Positions 48,057 to 54,100 of a stretch of DNA of 64,000 nt are shown piece after piece (position 1 is the stretch's first letter; every line of letters starts with the position of its first letter). Position numbers and translations under genes: made by a program. Origin of the DNA: Phycisphaeraceae bacterium (GTDB lineage Bacteria; Planctomycetota; Phycisphaerae; Phycisphaerales; UBA1924). Location of the stretch: positions 186,001-250,000 of the forward strand of contig JAHBWW010000001.1 in assembly GCA_019636795.1 (NCBI GenBank), written 5' to 3'. The notes beneath the pieces are model-generated. The model searched no databases and was not told the DNA's origin. It saw nothing but the letters and a program-made list of their open reading frames with translations.

Positions 48057-48203
48057 CCCGCAGGTCGCTTTTTGGCTCCCGAAGATCGATCTTGTGCCCT
48101 GGAATGTCGCTCTTCGGCTCTGGAAGATCGCTCTTCTACTCTGGAATGTCGCTCTTCTACTTTGGAATGTCGCTCTTGTGCTTTAGAAGATCGCTCTTCT
48201 GCA
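48057..48203 (+). repeat. 21-bp tandem repeat, seven units
   Basis: Seven contiguous 21-bp units (48057, 48078, 48099, 48120, 48141, 48162, 48183), consensus CTGGAAGATCGCTCTTCTACT. The first unit is degenerate, and bases 48204-48224 look like a decayed eighth. Each holds a near-palindrome around GAAGATCG(A/C)TCTT. Because 21 is divisible by 3, every frame on both strands reads a heptad-like peptide, but no frame has a convincing start or family. It lies 70 bases past the aldolase stop. No spacers are present, so it is not CRISPR. Confidence 0.85.
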
Positions 48204-48353
48204 GCCACAAATCGCGCAAGAACAGCCTCAAACCGCCCCGGCGCGCAGATAAACGCCACGGACCCGCGGTCCGTCACGCCATCCAGCGTCCGATGTCCCG
48301 CACGACCCGCAGCGGGCGTGTTCGGGTGTGATAAGAGTGATCGAGAGGGGAGA

Positions 48354-48388
48354 GGCACTGGGCACTAGGCACTAGGCATCTGGCAGTG
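48354..48388 (+). repeat. 7-bp tandem repeat, five units
   Basis: Five 7-bp units based on GGCACTA (48354 to 48388), the last two diverged. It lies in the 646-base gene-free stretch 47987-48632, 150 bases after the 21-bp array (21 is three times 7). No coding function is seen. Confidence 0.75.
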
Positions 48389-48453
48389 AACCAGCGGGGT
48401 CGATGGCTTGGCATCGTCCTCGGTGCCAGAGTCGGGAGCGTCTCGACGCTCGG

Positions 48454-48481
48454 CATCGAAGTCGCAGAGCCGACTTCGATG
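48454..48481. repeat. Inverted repeat, left flank of the nuclease/CFI-box pair
   Basis: A perfect 11-bp stem (CATCGAAGTCG / CGACTTCGATG) with a six-base loop and no T-run. Its core GAAGTCG / CGACTTC is the same as in the hairpin at 51034-51059. The remainder of 48482-48632 contains a direct repeat (CGAAGACGGTG twice) and then the ribosome-binding site of the nuclease gene. Confidence 0.8.
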
Positions 48482-48632
48482 GCACGGGGGAACTGAACTT
48501 TGATGCCACCCTGCCACCGGGCGAAGACGGTGCCCTTTCACGCTCGCTACGAAGACGGTGTAAGCATGCCGCCTGCCGGCGACGCTTCGCCTCACAACGT
48601 ATAGTCTTATCCTCATCTACTGGAGCGACTCA

Positions 48633-49565
48633 ATGAACGATGACAAGGGAACTTCGGGCGGCGATTGGCCACCGAACGACTTTGATCATTCCACGCCGGG
48701 TTCAAGTGCTCCGACCAATCCAATTCAAAACCCGGAGGATCTGCTTGGGGAAGCACTCCGGCTCATGAATGCGCGCCAACAGGAGTCCATTTTCTCCAAG
48801 GCGGCAGACGAAGCGATACGGCTCGGTGTGAAGCAAAGCGAAGGGGCCGTAGATCGAGACATGGTCGCGTCAAAAGTTGAAGCTGTCGCCGATGCGGTGC
48901 ACCGGCTGGGGAGCACCAGTACGGACGTTGAGATCCGAACGGAACATCGGTCACAGCACGGTTCCATCTACGTCACGGTGCGGAACGCTCCACCTCCCTT
49001 AGTTGCTCGTATCTCGCCGCGATTGGCTCCGATCCCTCGATGGGTCGCGAGTGTGGTGATCGCCGTTGCCACTTCGATCGGGCTTATCGGGGTTGGGATT
49101 TGGGCGACGGGCGGACGAAGCAGCGGTAATCCGTCGACTGTGGCACAATCGTCCCCGGCCCTGAATATAAGCAGGATCGCGGCGATCCAAGTCATTGACG
49201 GGGACACGCTCGTGGTGTCAGGTGTGGGCGGCACAGGGCTTGAGGAAAGGATCCGATTGTTGGCGATCGACACTCCCGAACGCGGACAGCGTTGGTATTC
49301 AGAGGCCGGGAACGCTCTCAGGGAACTTGTGGCCAACAGCCCCATCACTCTCGAATATGAGACGCCAGGGAAATTAGAACGCGACAAGTACGGGCGCGTA
49401 CTGGCGTACTTGATCGTGGACGGTCAAAACGTAAACGTCGAAATGGTTCGGCGAGGTTGGACCGCCCATGTGACGAAGTACGGGAGTAATCGTTTTGCCA
49501 ATGACTTTTCGGCGGCCGAGGGCGAAGCCCGCGCCGCTCAACGTGGCATTTGGTCGTCGCCTTGA
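48633..49565 (+). CDS. Membrane-anchored thermonuclease (SNase) with a duplicated N-terminal module
   Basis: A 310-residue protein: N-terminal linker (1-30), a module at 31-117 shared with the convergent gene, one membrane segment (about 137-159) and an exported staphylococcal nuclease-like domain (181-308). Active-site residues are intact: IDGDT (Asp189, Asp191), R208, D213 and E216 in RIRLLAIDTPE, and R255 in RDKYGRVLAY. It should cut DNA or RNA with calcium outside the membrane. GGAG stands before the ATG. GC content is lower than in neighbouring genes. Confidence 0.88.
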   Translation: MNDDKGTSGGDWPPNDFDHSTPGSSAPTNPIQNPEDLLGEALRLMNARQQESIFSKAADEAIRLGVKQSEGAVDRDMVASKVEAVADAVHRLGSTSTDVEIRTEHRSQHGSIYVTVRNAPPPLVARISPRLAPIPRWVASVVIAVATSIGLIGVGIWATGGRSSGNPSTVAQSSPALNISRIAAIQVIDGDTLVVSGVGGTGLEERIRLLAIDTPERGQRWYSEAGNALRELVANSPITLEYETPGKLERDKYGRVLAYLIVDGQNVNVEMVRRGWTAHVTKYGSNRFANDFSAAEGEARAAQRGIWSSP

Positions 49566-50917
49566 ACGTGATGCGTGGTGTCAAGCCAGATCGCTAGTTT
49601 CGCAAACGCGACTAGTGGAGCGAAGAACAGGCGTGTAGCCAGGCGAAGCACGGCTCGGTCCTCGATCATCCTCGCGTACGGCCGGCTATTGCGGTAGTAC
49701 CACGCGACAAAGGCTCGACCCGACGGCCGCACGCGCAAGCAGGTATCTCGGAATTCACGCAGCACCACAACAGTTGGATGGAACTCGTCGCCGTAACAGG
49801 CAGTTGCGACGAAGCACCCTCCGACTTGTTGCGAGAGAGACCTTTTCTTGCTCCTGACCGTAACCTGGACCGAGCCGTGCTCTGATCGGTGCTCTGCCTT
49901 AACCTCAAACTCAGTCCCGGCGTGCCCGAGTCTATTCGCGGCTTCGGCAGCACTGTCTACTTTGCTCGATGCCATCTCATGGTCAATCTTGCCCTCTTGT
50001 TGTTTCACCTGAAGTCGTAGCGCCTCGTCGGTAGCCTTACTGACGATCTCCTCTTGTTTCTGGGGCGACATACGGCGCAGAGCTTCTCCAAGCAAGTCGT
50101 TGGGGTTCTGAATTGGAGCCAAGTCCCGTGTTGGATGGTTGCCCTGCGGACGCGCGAGTTGGCCGGGCTTCTCGCCTTCTGGGGGAACTTGGCCGTTGCT
50201 CATTGCAGATCTCCTTGCAGTCGGGGGGGCGTGCTGGCTGACATGAATATACACGGTCGCCGCGGGCAGACGGACCGTCCGTGTGCCCGAAACCGACTTG
50301 TCCTGGTGCATTTCGGCAATCGAAAGCAACTGCCTCAATTCGGATTCAAGTGTCTGGACTGCAATCTCGCCTTTCCGCTTGTCGATTTGTTCCAGAAGCG
50401 CTTGCGCGGCAACTCCGTCGTCCGCGGCCAGCCATTCAAGCCGGTCCGCGACGGAGGGCGGAATCTCCTGTTCTCCAACTGCGTCAATCGCGGCCATGAC
50501 CGCTTCGATGGCTGCGTCAAGCCCGCCTTCGGGCGAGATTGTGACGTCGAGCGTCGTCTTCGATCGGAACTTGAACCACAGTTTCTCGATCAGTTCGTAT
50601 TTCTGGTCGAAGGTCAGGAAAGCCGGGACGATGCGCACTAACCGATCACTGATTTCGCCGCCCATTTGGACCCTGCCAGACCGCCACTCCTCGAATGTCA
50701 TTTCAGCATACTTGCGCTTACCCGACCCGTACTCTTTCTCGTAGCGGTTGAACACCATTTTGAGCGTGAAGCTATCCATCGCAAAGAACATGCGGCGCAC
50801 GTCGTGATCGATTCCACCGTACAGGCGAGAAACTTGCATACGGTGCGAAGGCGTGAAACCACCCCGCGGCGAGGCACGGTAACGGCGGCGTCGGTATCCC
50901 CGGCGGTAGTACCTCAT
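49538..50917 (-). CDS. CFI-box protein with duplicated module; possibly two translation products
   Basis: A 459-residue frame. Residues 1-238 are an unfamiliar domain starting with an Arg-rich head (RRGYRRRRYR). From residue 239 (MSNGQVPPEG) begins a 221-residue part: linker, the module shared with the nuclease gene, and a C-terminal CFI-box (GGCFVATACYGDEF, LREFRDTCL, YYRNSRPYARMI, then a hydrophobic tail), a C-terminal region known in several bacterial surface proteins. A strong internal start is at 50203. The start at 50917 has no ribosome-binding site. Overlaps the nuclease gene end by 28 bases. Confidence 0.72.
   Translation of the reverse strand: MRYYRRGYRRRRYRASPRGGFTPSHRMQVSRLYGGIDHDVRRMFFAMDSFTLKMVFNRYEKEYGSGKRKYAEMTFEEWRSGRVQMGGEISDRLVRIVPAFLTFDQKYELIEKLWFKFRSKTTLDVTISPEGGLDAAIEAVMAAIDAVGEQEIPPSVADRLEWLAADDGVAAQALLEQIDKRKGEIAVQTLESELRQLLSIAEMHQDKSVSGTRTVRLPAATVYIHVSQHAPPTARRSAMSNGQVPPEGEKPGQLARPQGNHPTRDLAPIQNPNDLLGEALRRMSPQKQEEIVSKATDEALRLQVKQQEGKIDHEMASSKVDSAAEAANRLGHAGTEFEVKAEHRSEHGSVQVTVRSKKRSLSQQVGGCFVATACYGDEFHPTVVVLREFRDTCLRVRPSGRAFVAWYYRNSRPYARMIEDRAVLRLATRLFFAPLVAFAKLAIWLDTTHHVQGDDQMPR
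50201..50217 (-). promoter_or_regulatory. Internal ribosome-binding site and start of the CFI-box half
   Basis: On the minus strand, AAGGAG lies eight bases before an ATG that starts MSNGQVPPEG, in frame within the longer open frame. From this ATG the residue numbering of the shared module is identical to that of the neighbouring nuclease (31-117 in both), which argues that this is a true start. Confidence 0.7.
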
Positions 50918-51033
50918 CGAAAATTACTCAGGCATGCGCAAACCCTTCGCGTGCGATTGTACAGCGCAATTATGTAAATATCCCCTAATTGGCGGGGGTG
51001 GGCAGGGCAGCATCAAAGTCCCTGCATCCGTGC

Positions 51034-51059
51034 CACTGAAGTCGTTTTCGACTTCAGTG
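51034..51059. repeat. Inverted repeat, right flank of the nuclease/CFI-box pair
   Basis: A perfect 11-bp stem (CACTGAAGTCG / CGACTTCAGTG) with a TTTT loop, between the CFI-box gene start and the end of the amidohydrolase gene. Its GAAGTCG / CGACTTC core matches the hairpin at 48454-48481. It lacks a terminal T-run, so it is not a classic terminator. I see no gene in 50918-51170. Confidence 0.8.
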
Positions 51060-51170
51060 TTCTTCGTCCGCTGCTTTGCGGTGGCCCGGACCTTCGGGCT
51101 GCGGAGGCTTGCGCGAGGGGGCAGGAAGGGTGTGAGCCCAACGATCCGGCGTCCTGGGCTTGCGTTGCGT

Positions 51171-54100
51171 TTATTGATCGAGCAGATGAATCAGCCTCGC
51201 TTCGTGATCGATCAGGTCGCAGCCGCACTCGTTGTTGTGCGAGAGGATGCCTCGGCGGGCGCGATCGATCAGGTCGCCCAGGTCGTGGGTGTGCTCGTCG
51301 TGCGCGCACAGTTCGGGTTCACCGGTGGGTTGATCGGAATCTTTGTGCTGTTCGTTGTCCTTCTCTTTGTCCCCCTCGTTGTCCCTCTCTTTGTGGTCGC
51401 TTGCTCTGGGCCTGGGCGCTTCGAGGGCAAGCTGGAGGAGGCGGTGGCGCTCGGCGCGGATGCGCTCGCGGTGCTGGCGATCGCGCTCGAGCGAGTAATA
51501 CTCGCGGCCGTCGATCCAGGTGGCTTCGCAGCGCGAGAGACTTGAGAGCGGGCTCCCGGACCAGATGACAAAGTCCGCGTCCTTGCCGGCTTCGAGCGAC
51601 CCGACGCGGTCGGCGATGCCGAGCTGGATCGCGGGGTTGATGGTGACGAACGCCAGCGCGTCGTGGGGCGCGATGTGTCCGTCGCCATACTTGACAGCCT
51701 TGGCGGCCTCGCCGTTCATCCGGCGTGCGAGTTCGTCGGAGTCGGAGTTGTAACTGGTCAGCACACCGACGCGGGTTTGAAGCGGTCCAGCGTAGGGAAT
51801 CGCATCCTGCACCTCGACCTTGTAGGCCCACCAGTCGCTGAAGAGGCTGGCGCCGATCGCGTGCTGGCGCACGGCCTCGGCCACCTTGTAGACTTCCAGC
51901 CCGTGCTGGAAGGTGCCGACGGTGAATCCGAACTCCTCGGCCACGCGACACAACATCAGAATCTCATCCTGGCGATAACTGTGGCAGTGCACAAGCCGCT
52001 CGCCCGCGAGAATCTCGGCGAGCGTCTCGAGCTCGAGATCCCGGCGCGGACGGGGCAGGGCTGCGATGCGCCGGTCCTGCTCTTCGACCGGGATGCGCAG
52101 CATGCGGATGCGGTCGATCTGCTGCTGATATCGGGCCGGGGCTGCTGCGTACTCCTGAGCGGCGAAGAACCGATCACGAATGATGGTCTCGACGCCCATG
52201 CGCGTCTGCGGGTAGCGTGTGGTGAAGCGGTCTCCCCAGTTGGACTGCTTGACGTTTTCGCCGAGCGCGAACTTGATGCCGGGTTTTGCATCTTCGAAAA
52301 ACATATCCTGCGGGCGCAGCGCGCCCCAGCGCACTTTGACGATCTGGCTCTGCCCGCCGATGGGGTTGGCCGAGCCGTGGAGCAGATTGGCGGTGGTGAC
52401 CCCGCCGGCGAGCTGGCGATACCAGTTGATGTTGCCGGGGTCGAGCGCGTCGCCGATGCGACATTCAGCCGTCACCGCCTGCCCTGCTTCATTGACTCCG
52501 AGTCGGAACAGCCCGGTGTGGCTGTGGGCGTCAATCAGGCCGGGCGTGATGTGTCGTCCGCCCGCGTCGAGCGAAGCGGTGCCTGCGGGAAGACTGATGG
52601 CTTCGAGCCCGCCCGCGCCAACCGCGACGATGCGCCCGTCAGAGACAATCATGTGCCCATTTTCGATGATGCCGTCGGGGCCCTGGGTCCAGATCGTTGC
52701 GTTGTGAAGAACGATGGTTTGTTGGGCAGGCGCTTCGGGCATTGCGTAGGGCCCGAACGGAACGCCGCCTAGGTCGTCCGGCGCGCGATGGATCTCCGGC
52801 TTCTTCGCGGCGCGTGTGCGAGGTGCACCCGACGGCTCGGTTGCTTGCTTGTCGCTCTCGGCCGGTGCCGCCTCGCCCGCCTCGACGGGGGCGGCCTGCT
52901 CGGTGCGCATCGCCGTCCACTGAAAGGTCTGACCAAAAGGAGCGATCCCGGTGCCAGCAAGCCGATCGCCGACAAGCACGCCGGACACAACATAGGTCAC
53001 CTGATCGTCGTCCTCGTCGTCAATGAGGAAGCTGATCGCGGGAAGGTCGATGACGACCTTGCGGGCCTTGTTGCGAGCATCGCCCTCGATCATCTCGATG
53101 GTTGTGCCCTTGACGATCATCTGCATTTCGAACCCATCACCGGTACGAATGTTCCACATGCCATCGAGCACGTCCTGCTTGCGGTCGGCAATGTGGTGGG
53201 AGTGACCTTCAACCCAGACGCTGAGGATTCTGGTTTTCTCATCGAACAGGCGGCCGTCAGTCACCACAAGACTCGCCAGCTTTCCGGCTTCGAGTGTGCC
53301 CAGGCGATCGTCCACGCCGAGAATCGCAGCGGGGATCGTGGTCAGCATCGCCAGCGCCCGGTCTTCGGAGAGCCCGGCTTCGATCGCGCGGCGGACGTTG
53401 TCGCGAAACTTCTGACCCTCGGGCAGTTTGCTGCTGGTCAACGCGACGGTGACCCCCGCGTCGGCCAGACGCCTCGGGTTCGTCGGTGCCTGTTCCCAGT
53501 GCATGAGGTCTGAAAGATCGATGCCCTCGGCCGCCGAGACGCTTGACACATCCGGAGCCGCCGGGAATCGCAGCGGCACGATCATCGTGTGCCCGTCAGC
53601 CGCGATCGCGTCGAGCCGGCGGAATTCAGTCCCGCTTCCGATGATGACAGTCCTGGCAACGTCGAGCCCGAACTCGCGGCTGATGGTCCCGGCGAGCAGG
53701 GCTTCGAGTTCGACGTTCGTGTCAAACCACAGCGGCGTCGCCTCAGGCTTGAGCGAATCGAGAAAACCCGCTGGCGTGCTGGCGGACTGCGCGTGTTGAT
53801 GCTCGGCATCGAGCAACACCTGCCGCACGAGTGCGACAGCACCCATGTGTGACGTGGGGTACGCGCGTTCGCCGCGCGTTGTCTCGAAAGCAACCATCTG
53901 AAACACATTGGCGGCGTAGGTTGTGGGGCGGTCCTTGCTGGTGTCGGCGGGGGCGTCGGCCGTGCTCACGACGGCGCCTCGGCCGCGGAAGATGCCGCCC
54001 CTGGGGCTCAGCGCCGCAGACACGAATCCGTTGTTTCGCAGAGTGCGCCGCGCGGCGGCATCGAGCCCGGGACCATCAATCACGCTGCGCTCGGGTATGA

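Follow-up and report, generated by a model that had tools for sequence, protein, structure and literature searches.

Two convergent genes of a Phycisphaeraceae bacterium share a protein module that is joined in each case to a different C-terminal part. The two genes, here called A and B, reside in a window of 64,000 nucleotides (assembly GCA_019636795.1, contig JAHBWW010000001.1, positions 186,001 to 250,000), to which all coordinates refer unless another locus is named. Our preferred reading, to which we assign a probability of roughly 0.45, is that A and B are members of a two-part membrane system, so far undescribed and moving horizontally, in which the module serves as an assembly part that docks the nuclease of A on B. 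The features of the two genes are as follows.

48633..49565, plus strand: gene A, an open frame of 310 aa (module, transmembrane helix, SNase)
48723..48983, plus strand: module in A, residues 31-117, aligned with B without gaps at 52/87 identity
49044..49100, plus strand: transmembrane helix of A, residues 138-156, hydropathy 2.35
49176..49559, plus strand: SNase domain of A, from a PF00565 match and residues D191, R208, D213, T214, E216 and R255
49538..49565, no strand: 28-bp overlap of the 3' ends of the convergent genes A and B
49538..50917, minus strand: gene B, an open frame of 459 aa (N-domain, module, CFI-box) with a full-length orthologue in genome G102
50228..50857, minus strand: N-domain of B, about residues 21-230, an undescribed family with homologues in two plasmids and in genomes G485, G434 and G435
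49853..50113, minus strand: module in B, residues 269-355, from the alignment with A
49610..49816, minus strand: CFI-box-CTERM domain of B, residues 368-436, from NF041770

A first-pass annotation of this DNA had reported an ungapped module spanning residues 31-117 both of A and of a 222-codon frame that begins at 50203 on the minus strand. This alignment was reproduced, with 52 of the 87 residues identical and background identity on either side. The likeness is not due to chance, since a tblastn-type search of the genome with A gave convincing matches to itself and to B alone (E 2e-30). The same annotation had called the duplication recent, a view that the nucleotide comparison overturns. The module DNA of A and B is identical at 160 of 261 positions and at just 32 of 87 third codon positions, from which we conclude that the copies are old, and the module of B is nearer to that of G102 (70% identical) than to that of A (59%). 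A tree of the modules groups A, B and G102 without fixing the order among them. The motifs EHRSxHGSxxxTVR and IQNPxDLLGEAL are intact in the module of A long after the third positions diverged.

Gene B proved to be larger than the single module and CFI-box half first described, because the open frame reaches 50917 and an orthologue aligns with it over the full length. This orthologue, which is 57% identical and has the same order of N-domain, module and CFI-box, is found in G102 (Phycisphaerales MAG OFTM74, JAJDDG010000009.1), a member of another genus. Position 50203 is thus not the start of the gene, and it retains meaning as a probable internal start. At the C-terminus, an NCBIfam search matched NF041770 at 73.7 bits against a cut-off of 40, and by this profile the C-terminal part of B is a bona fide CFI-box. 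The term ‘CFI-box’ was not mentioned in the literature searched, and nothing in B was matched in a Pfam scan.

The N-domain family has 18 invariant columns across 7 sequences. When modelled alone, the N-domain of B is predicted to be helical with a terminal beta-hairpin (pLDDT 78.5), and a Foldseek comparison of this model with PDB and viral models gave no match below E 0.8. An AlphaFold model of the whole of B was too poor (pLDDT 54.8), and a Foldseek search with it returned nothing significant. Homology between the C-terminal part of the N-domain and the module was tested for and not found (E 0.46). The VIA list for the N-domain model is headed by five Hsp70/Hsp110 nucleotide-binding-domain chains (Z 5.4-5.9, with the next row at Z 4.0), whose residues of about 230-304 fit residues 111-213 of the model (window 50228-50527) at an rmsd of 3.0-3.5 with 66-68 residues aligned. 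This resemblance, below Z 8, may reflect just a common arrangement of helices and a hairpin, and is kept as a lead.

In gene A, a Pfam scan identified SNase (PF00565) at E 7e-19 and 68.7 bits against a gathering cut-off of 21, and it is through this part alone that A matches PADLOC-DB 2.0. The motifs DGDT, RLLAIDTPE and DKYGR are all intact and contain D191, R208, D213-T214, E216 and R255, which we take to be active-site positions by comparison with the textbook motifs of micrococcal nuclease. Judged from these motifs the active site is intact, and nuclease activity is predicted. A single hydrophobic segment (residues 138-156) adjoins the SNase domain, so that A is predicted to be a membrane-anchored nuclease. 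There are three K/R in the 15 residues before this helix and one in the 15 after it, and the K/R rule predicts that the module side is cytoplasmic and the SNase side is outside. Gene A is the sole instance found of a module fused to SNase, and also the sole fusion of the module to any catalytic domain. It begins 30 residues ahead of its module, as does the short form of B, and is best read as a paralogue of a free module protein that carries a transmembrane helix and SNase in place of the CFI-box.

The suggestion that the module is not an already described domain was borne out, given that neither it nor the N-domain has a family in Pfam, NCBIfam, PHROG or PADLOC; in PADLOC-DB 2.0, likewise, neither B nor the G485 module nor the G434 N-domain matched a profile. 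Weak sub-threshold family matches to the module, such as AdoMet synthetase (E 0.14), were dismissed. Across about 860 genome searches, the module of A, and then a profile of A, B and G102, failed to bring up a convincing relative elsewhere. Similarly, no relative was found with a peptide pattern of the module in genome or viral contigs, with three alignments of the N-domain and module in viral contigs, or with the V. harveyi and G434 N-domains in phages. Weak first-round matches (L006-L009) were out of frame or unrelated (homoserine dehydrogenase-like) and were dropped, as were those at L036-L038.

Distant relatives were reached by way of the N-domain. When plasmids were searched with B by tblastn, its N-domain found matches on a conjugative plasmid of V. 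harveyi (E 2e-15) and on a plasmid of Thioalkalivibrio (E 4e-6). Two genes upstream of the N-domain gene on the V. harveyi plasmid (NZ_CP117056) lies the gene for a 140-aa module-like protein with a C-terminal hydrophobic tail, whose pairwise likeness to the module (E 0.003) is weak alone. A profile that includes this V. harveyi module (alignment A5) recovered G485 (E 1.5e-7), G435 (E 2.7e-6) and G434 (E 7.8e-4), each of which has an N-domain homologue beside the module or within the same gene. The strongest evidence that this distant module homology is real is that the N-domain accompanies all three matches, though the module search used no N-domain. In addition, alignment A2 matches G435 at E 5e-5 with the hairpin motif aligned, and the G485 module matches that of V. 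harveyi at E 3e-9. The link from A and B to the stand-alone modules is weak (E 0.003) if G435 is left out as a bridge.

The pair of N-domain and module is rare and scattered, which points to horizontal transfer. It is present in 2 of the 163 genomes in the family to which the window belongs, in one genome each from the orders of G485, G435 and G434, and on two conjugative plasmids (V. harveyi and Thioalkalivibrio). The homology of the parts, their architecture, their fusions and splits and their sporadic distribution are all documented by these comparisons of sequence. GC content in the window is 0.56-0.60 over about 48.3-51.2 kb, which covers A and B, versus about 0.65 in the flanks; the low GC across 48300-51200 is as would be seen for an acquired islet.

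Known defence genes lie near some of the loci and not near others. A PD-T4-5 homologue (E 6.5e-68) resides about 2 kb upstream of the V. harveyi pair, and the G434 pair has an RmrA homologue about 2.1 kb downstream (E 6.8e-60) and a HEPN-type protein upstream. The window and G102 loci instead lie among housekeeping genes. The neighbours in the window are a DeoC/LacD-family aldolase and an amidohydrolase, whereas those of the G102 orthologue were read as genes for ribosomal proteins and for arginine biosynthesis, and an SNase partner gene was not seen among them. Directly upstream of the G434 pair (L040:3107-6422) there are a HEPN_Swt1-like gene, a DUF6338 membrane protein and a small proline-rich gene, which might form part of a larger island.

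The two parts are encoded in either split or fused form. In G485 and G434, which are distant Planctomycetota, a gene for the module and a tail is followed by a gene for the N-domain and a tail. The V. harveyi plasmid has the same split form with a small 86-aa gene between the two. This small gene (L023:4826-5086) overlaps its neighbours on both sides, and no homologue was found on other plasmids at E < 0.1. In the fused form, the order is N-domain, module and anchor, with a transmembrane tail in G435 and a CFI-box in G102 and B. The recurrence of the pair in split and fused forms suggests a physical or functional link between module and N-domain. The Thioalkalivibrio plasmid encodes an N-domain followed by a weak CFI-box (39.3 bits, just below the cut-off of 40). 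In this protein (L024:5875-6804) the CFI-box is diverged and lacks the CFI-motif cysteine, and no module lies between the two domains.

At least three kinds of C-terminal part follow the module: a transmembrane tail (V. harveyi, G485, G434 and G435), a CFI-box (B and G102), and a transmembrane helix with SNase (A). Module and N-domain proteins that stand alone carry a strongly hydrophobic stretch 0 to 26 residues from the C-terminal end. The 15 residues that precede this stretch contain two or three K/R and the residues that follow contain none or one, a pattern which suggests that these are tail-anchored proteins whose domains are cytoplasmic. The last helix of the CFI-box has a hydropathy of 1.3-1.6. 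Because the CFI-box sits where homologues have a transmembrane tail, this position suggests that the CFI-box of B is a membrane-associating part as well. Its earlier description as an ‘effector’ is not supported, for the same reason. The C-terminal parts are indeed swapped, as the first-pass annotation had proposed, and the modular idea is right in outline, but these parts are mostly anchors, the duplication is old, and the single fusion to SNase limits the case for effector swapping.

Fused genes might still yield a free module protein. Two features of B at the border between N-domain and module bear on this possibility.

50201..50203, minus strand: probable internal start codon of B (codon 239), which would yield a 221-residue module-CFI product; same arrangement in G102 and G435
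50210..50216, minus strand: Shine-Dalgarno-like AAGGAGA upstream of the internal ATG

All three fused genes have at this border an ATG that is in frame and follows a Shine-Dalgarno sequence (B, GCAAGGAGATCTGCA-ATG; G102, ACAACAGGAGGCAAC-ATG; G435, ATGGAGAGCTATT-ATG), with predicted pairing energies of -8.0, -10.3 and -6.4, respectively. Among the 457 internal ATGs of the window and the G102 contig that served as the comparison set, 4.2% of in-frame ATGs are as strong as that of B or stronger, and 2.0% as that of G102; the G435 value is near the tenth percentile of this set. The internal ATG of B could conceivably have arisen by chance, with the 459-aa fusion as the sole product and the second product an illusion created by the linker. 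By chance alone, about 4% of internal ATGs have an SD-like string upstream, and a second such string precedes an ATG inside the module in both B (M283) and G102. We nevertheless regard this explanation as unlikely. The start is placed alike in the three fused genes, at the border and in an unconserved linker, and the residues downstream of it resemble the starts of stand-alone modules (G102 MSSDESESSRDLARRD, MSSD..RDLARRD, versus G434 MSQQDENNRDLAKREQ, MSQQ..RDLAKRE; G435 MTDNN versus G485 MTDND). Thus, the internal Shine-Dalgarno sequence and ATG probably still make a free module-anchor protein from the fused gene. A comparable layout is known for Cas11, a small subunit produced from internal starts in cas8 and cas10 genes (PMC11899642). 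B resembles these genes in that a small subunit would be encoded in-frame within the gene for a large subunit, in addition to the full-length product. The likeness is confined to gene layout and does not extend to sequence, and the start inside B is a prediction.

The preferred two-part membrane system would most likely operate as follows. One part would be the N-domain, which is helical and ends in a beta-hairpin, and the other would be the module, with helices followed by a beta-hairpin. Each would be held at the inner membrane by its C-terminus, through either a transmembrane tail or a CFI-box. The module would bind both itself and the N-domain; A would thereby dock on B at the membrane, with its nuclease held on the outer face. 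There the nuclease would cut DNA arriving by phage injection, conjugation or uptake, and the N-domain would act as a scaffold or sensor. The topology, the internal start and the physical assembly of this system are what we infer from the features above, and its trigger and role in defence are speculative. A more general form of this idea, which we consider quite doubtful, would make the pair a new family of membrane-anchored, two-part systems directed against DNA. N-domain and module subunits would form a complex on the inner membrane, with the module translated from a gene of its own or from a nested start, and open to extension through the membrane to a periplasmic nuclease that destroys DNA before or during its crossing of the inner membrane.

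Gene A could also be an ordinary secreted or membrane nuclease for nutrient or DNA turnover. A copy of the module would then have been captured as an extension of the anchor on the cytoplasmic side, with no working link to B and with adjacency explained by a duplicate that landed beside its parent. SNases are common and often extracytoplasmic, the fusion was found once, and the neighbouring genes are housekeeping genes. In G485, a separate SNase lipoprotein-like gene (L039:188-595) precedes the split pair by about 6 kb; it fits this explanation and may be a coincidence. However, the 87-residue module of A has kept 60% identity and both motifs after third positions diverged, which argues that it is under constraint, and a mere anchor would not need that. 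We therefore judge an ordinary nuclease to be somewhat unlikely. A different possibility is that the two-part system has a non-defence role in mobile elements or envelope stress (e.g. entry exclusion, membrane remodelling or plasmid maintenance) and that the nuclease of A is a side branch. This would suit the conjugative nature of both plasmids, the lack of a recognisable enzyme in either part and the location of the G102 and window copies outside defence islands. The PD-T4-5-like and RmrA-like genes beside two split loci and the nuclease effector in A speak against it, and we hold such a role to be rather improbable.

The preferred docking of A on B at the membrane has a functional precedent in SNIPE (Nature 2026, PMC13190303). 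This membrane-bound nuclease cleaves phage DNA while it is being injected, and is built from an N-terminal transmembrane segment, DUF4041 and a GIY-YIG nuclease that faces the cytoplasm. Like SNIPE, A would be a single-pass membrane protein that combines a DNA nuclease with a separate docking domain and places the nuclease at the inner membrane. Unlike SNIPE, it has another docking module, a central transmembrane helix, an SNase domain predicted to be outside and a partner gene, and the two are not homologous. A Pfam scan found none of the domains of SNIPE in A or B, the sole match being SNase in A. A defence role is thus a plausible suggestion, drawn by analogy, that A and B work like SNIPE, and does not imply membership.

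Each gene also resembles more familiar families in one of its parts. The catalytic domain of A, with its intact motifs, is that of the staphylococcal nuclease family (PF00565), which includes the PADLOC candidate C3a212 ‘SNc+LTD’, whereas none of the SNase architectures in the libraries includes the module, and no family scored above its cut-off on residues 31-117 of A. B shares a C-terminal CFI-box with the CFI-box-CTERM proteins (NF041770), but the N-terminal parts of the other examples examined (from Acinetobacter, Paracoccus and Comamonadaceae plasmids and from genome G067) are unrelated to that of B. The module and N-domain families have no entry in the four libraries searched, yet both recur, split or fused and with three types of C-terminal part, in scattered genomes as well as on conjugative plasmids. 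Should the module indeed dock a nuclease on a membrane complex, the result would be a nuclease sited at the membrane that differs from SNIPE in fold, in partner and in its predicted side of the membrane. The replacement of the CFI-box by a tail in homologues also provides a natural setting for asking whether this common, unexplained domain is a membrane anchor.

One further feature lies in the intergenic region between the aldolase gene and A, where a 21-bp unit is repeated in tandem about 6.7 times (window 48062-48202).
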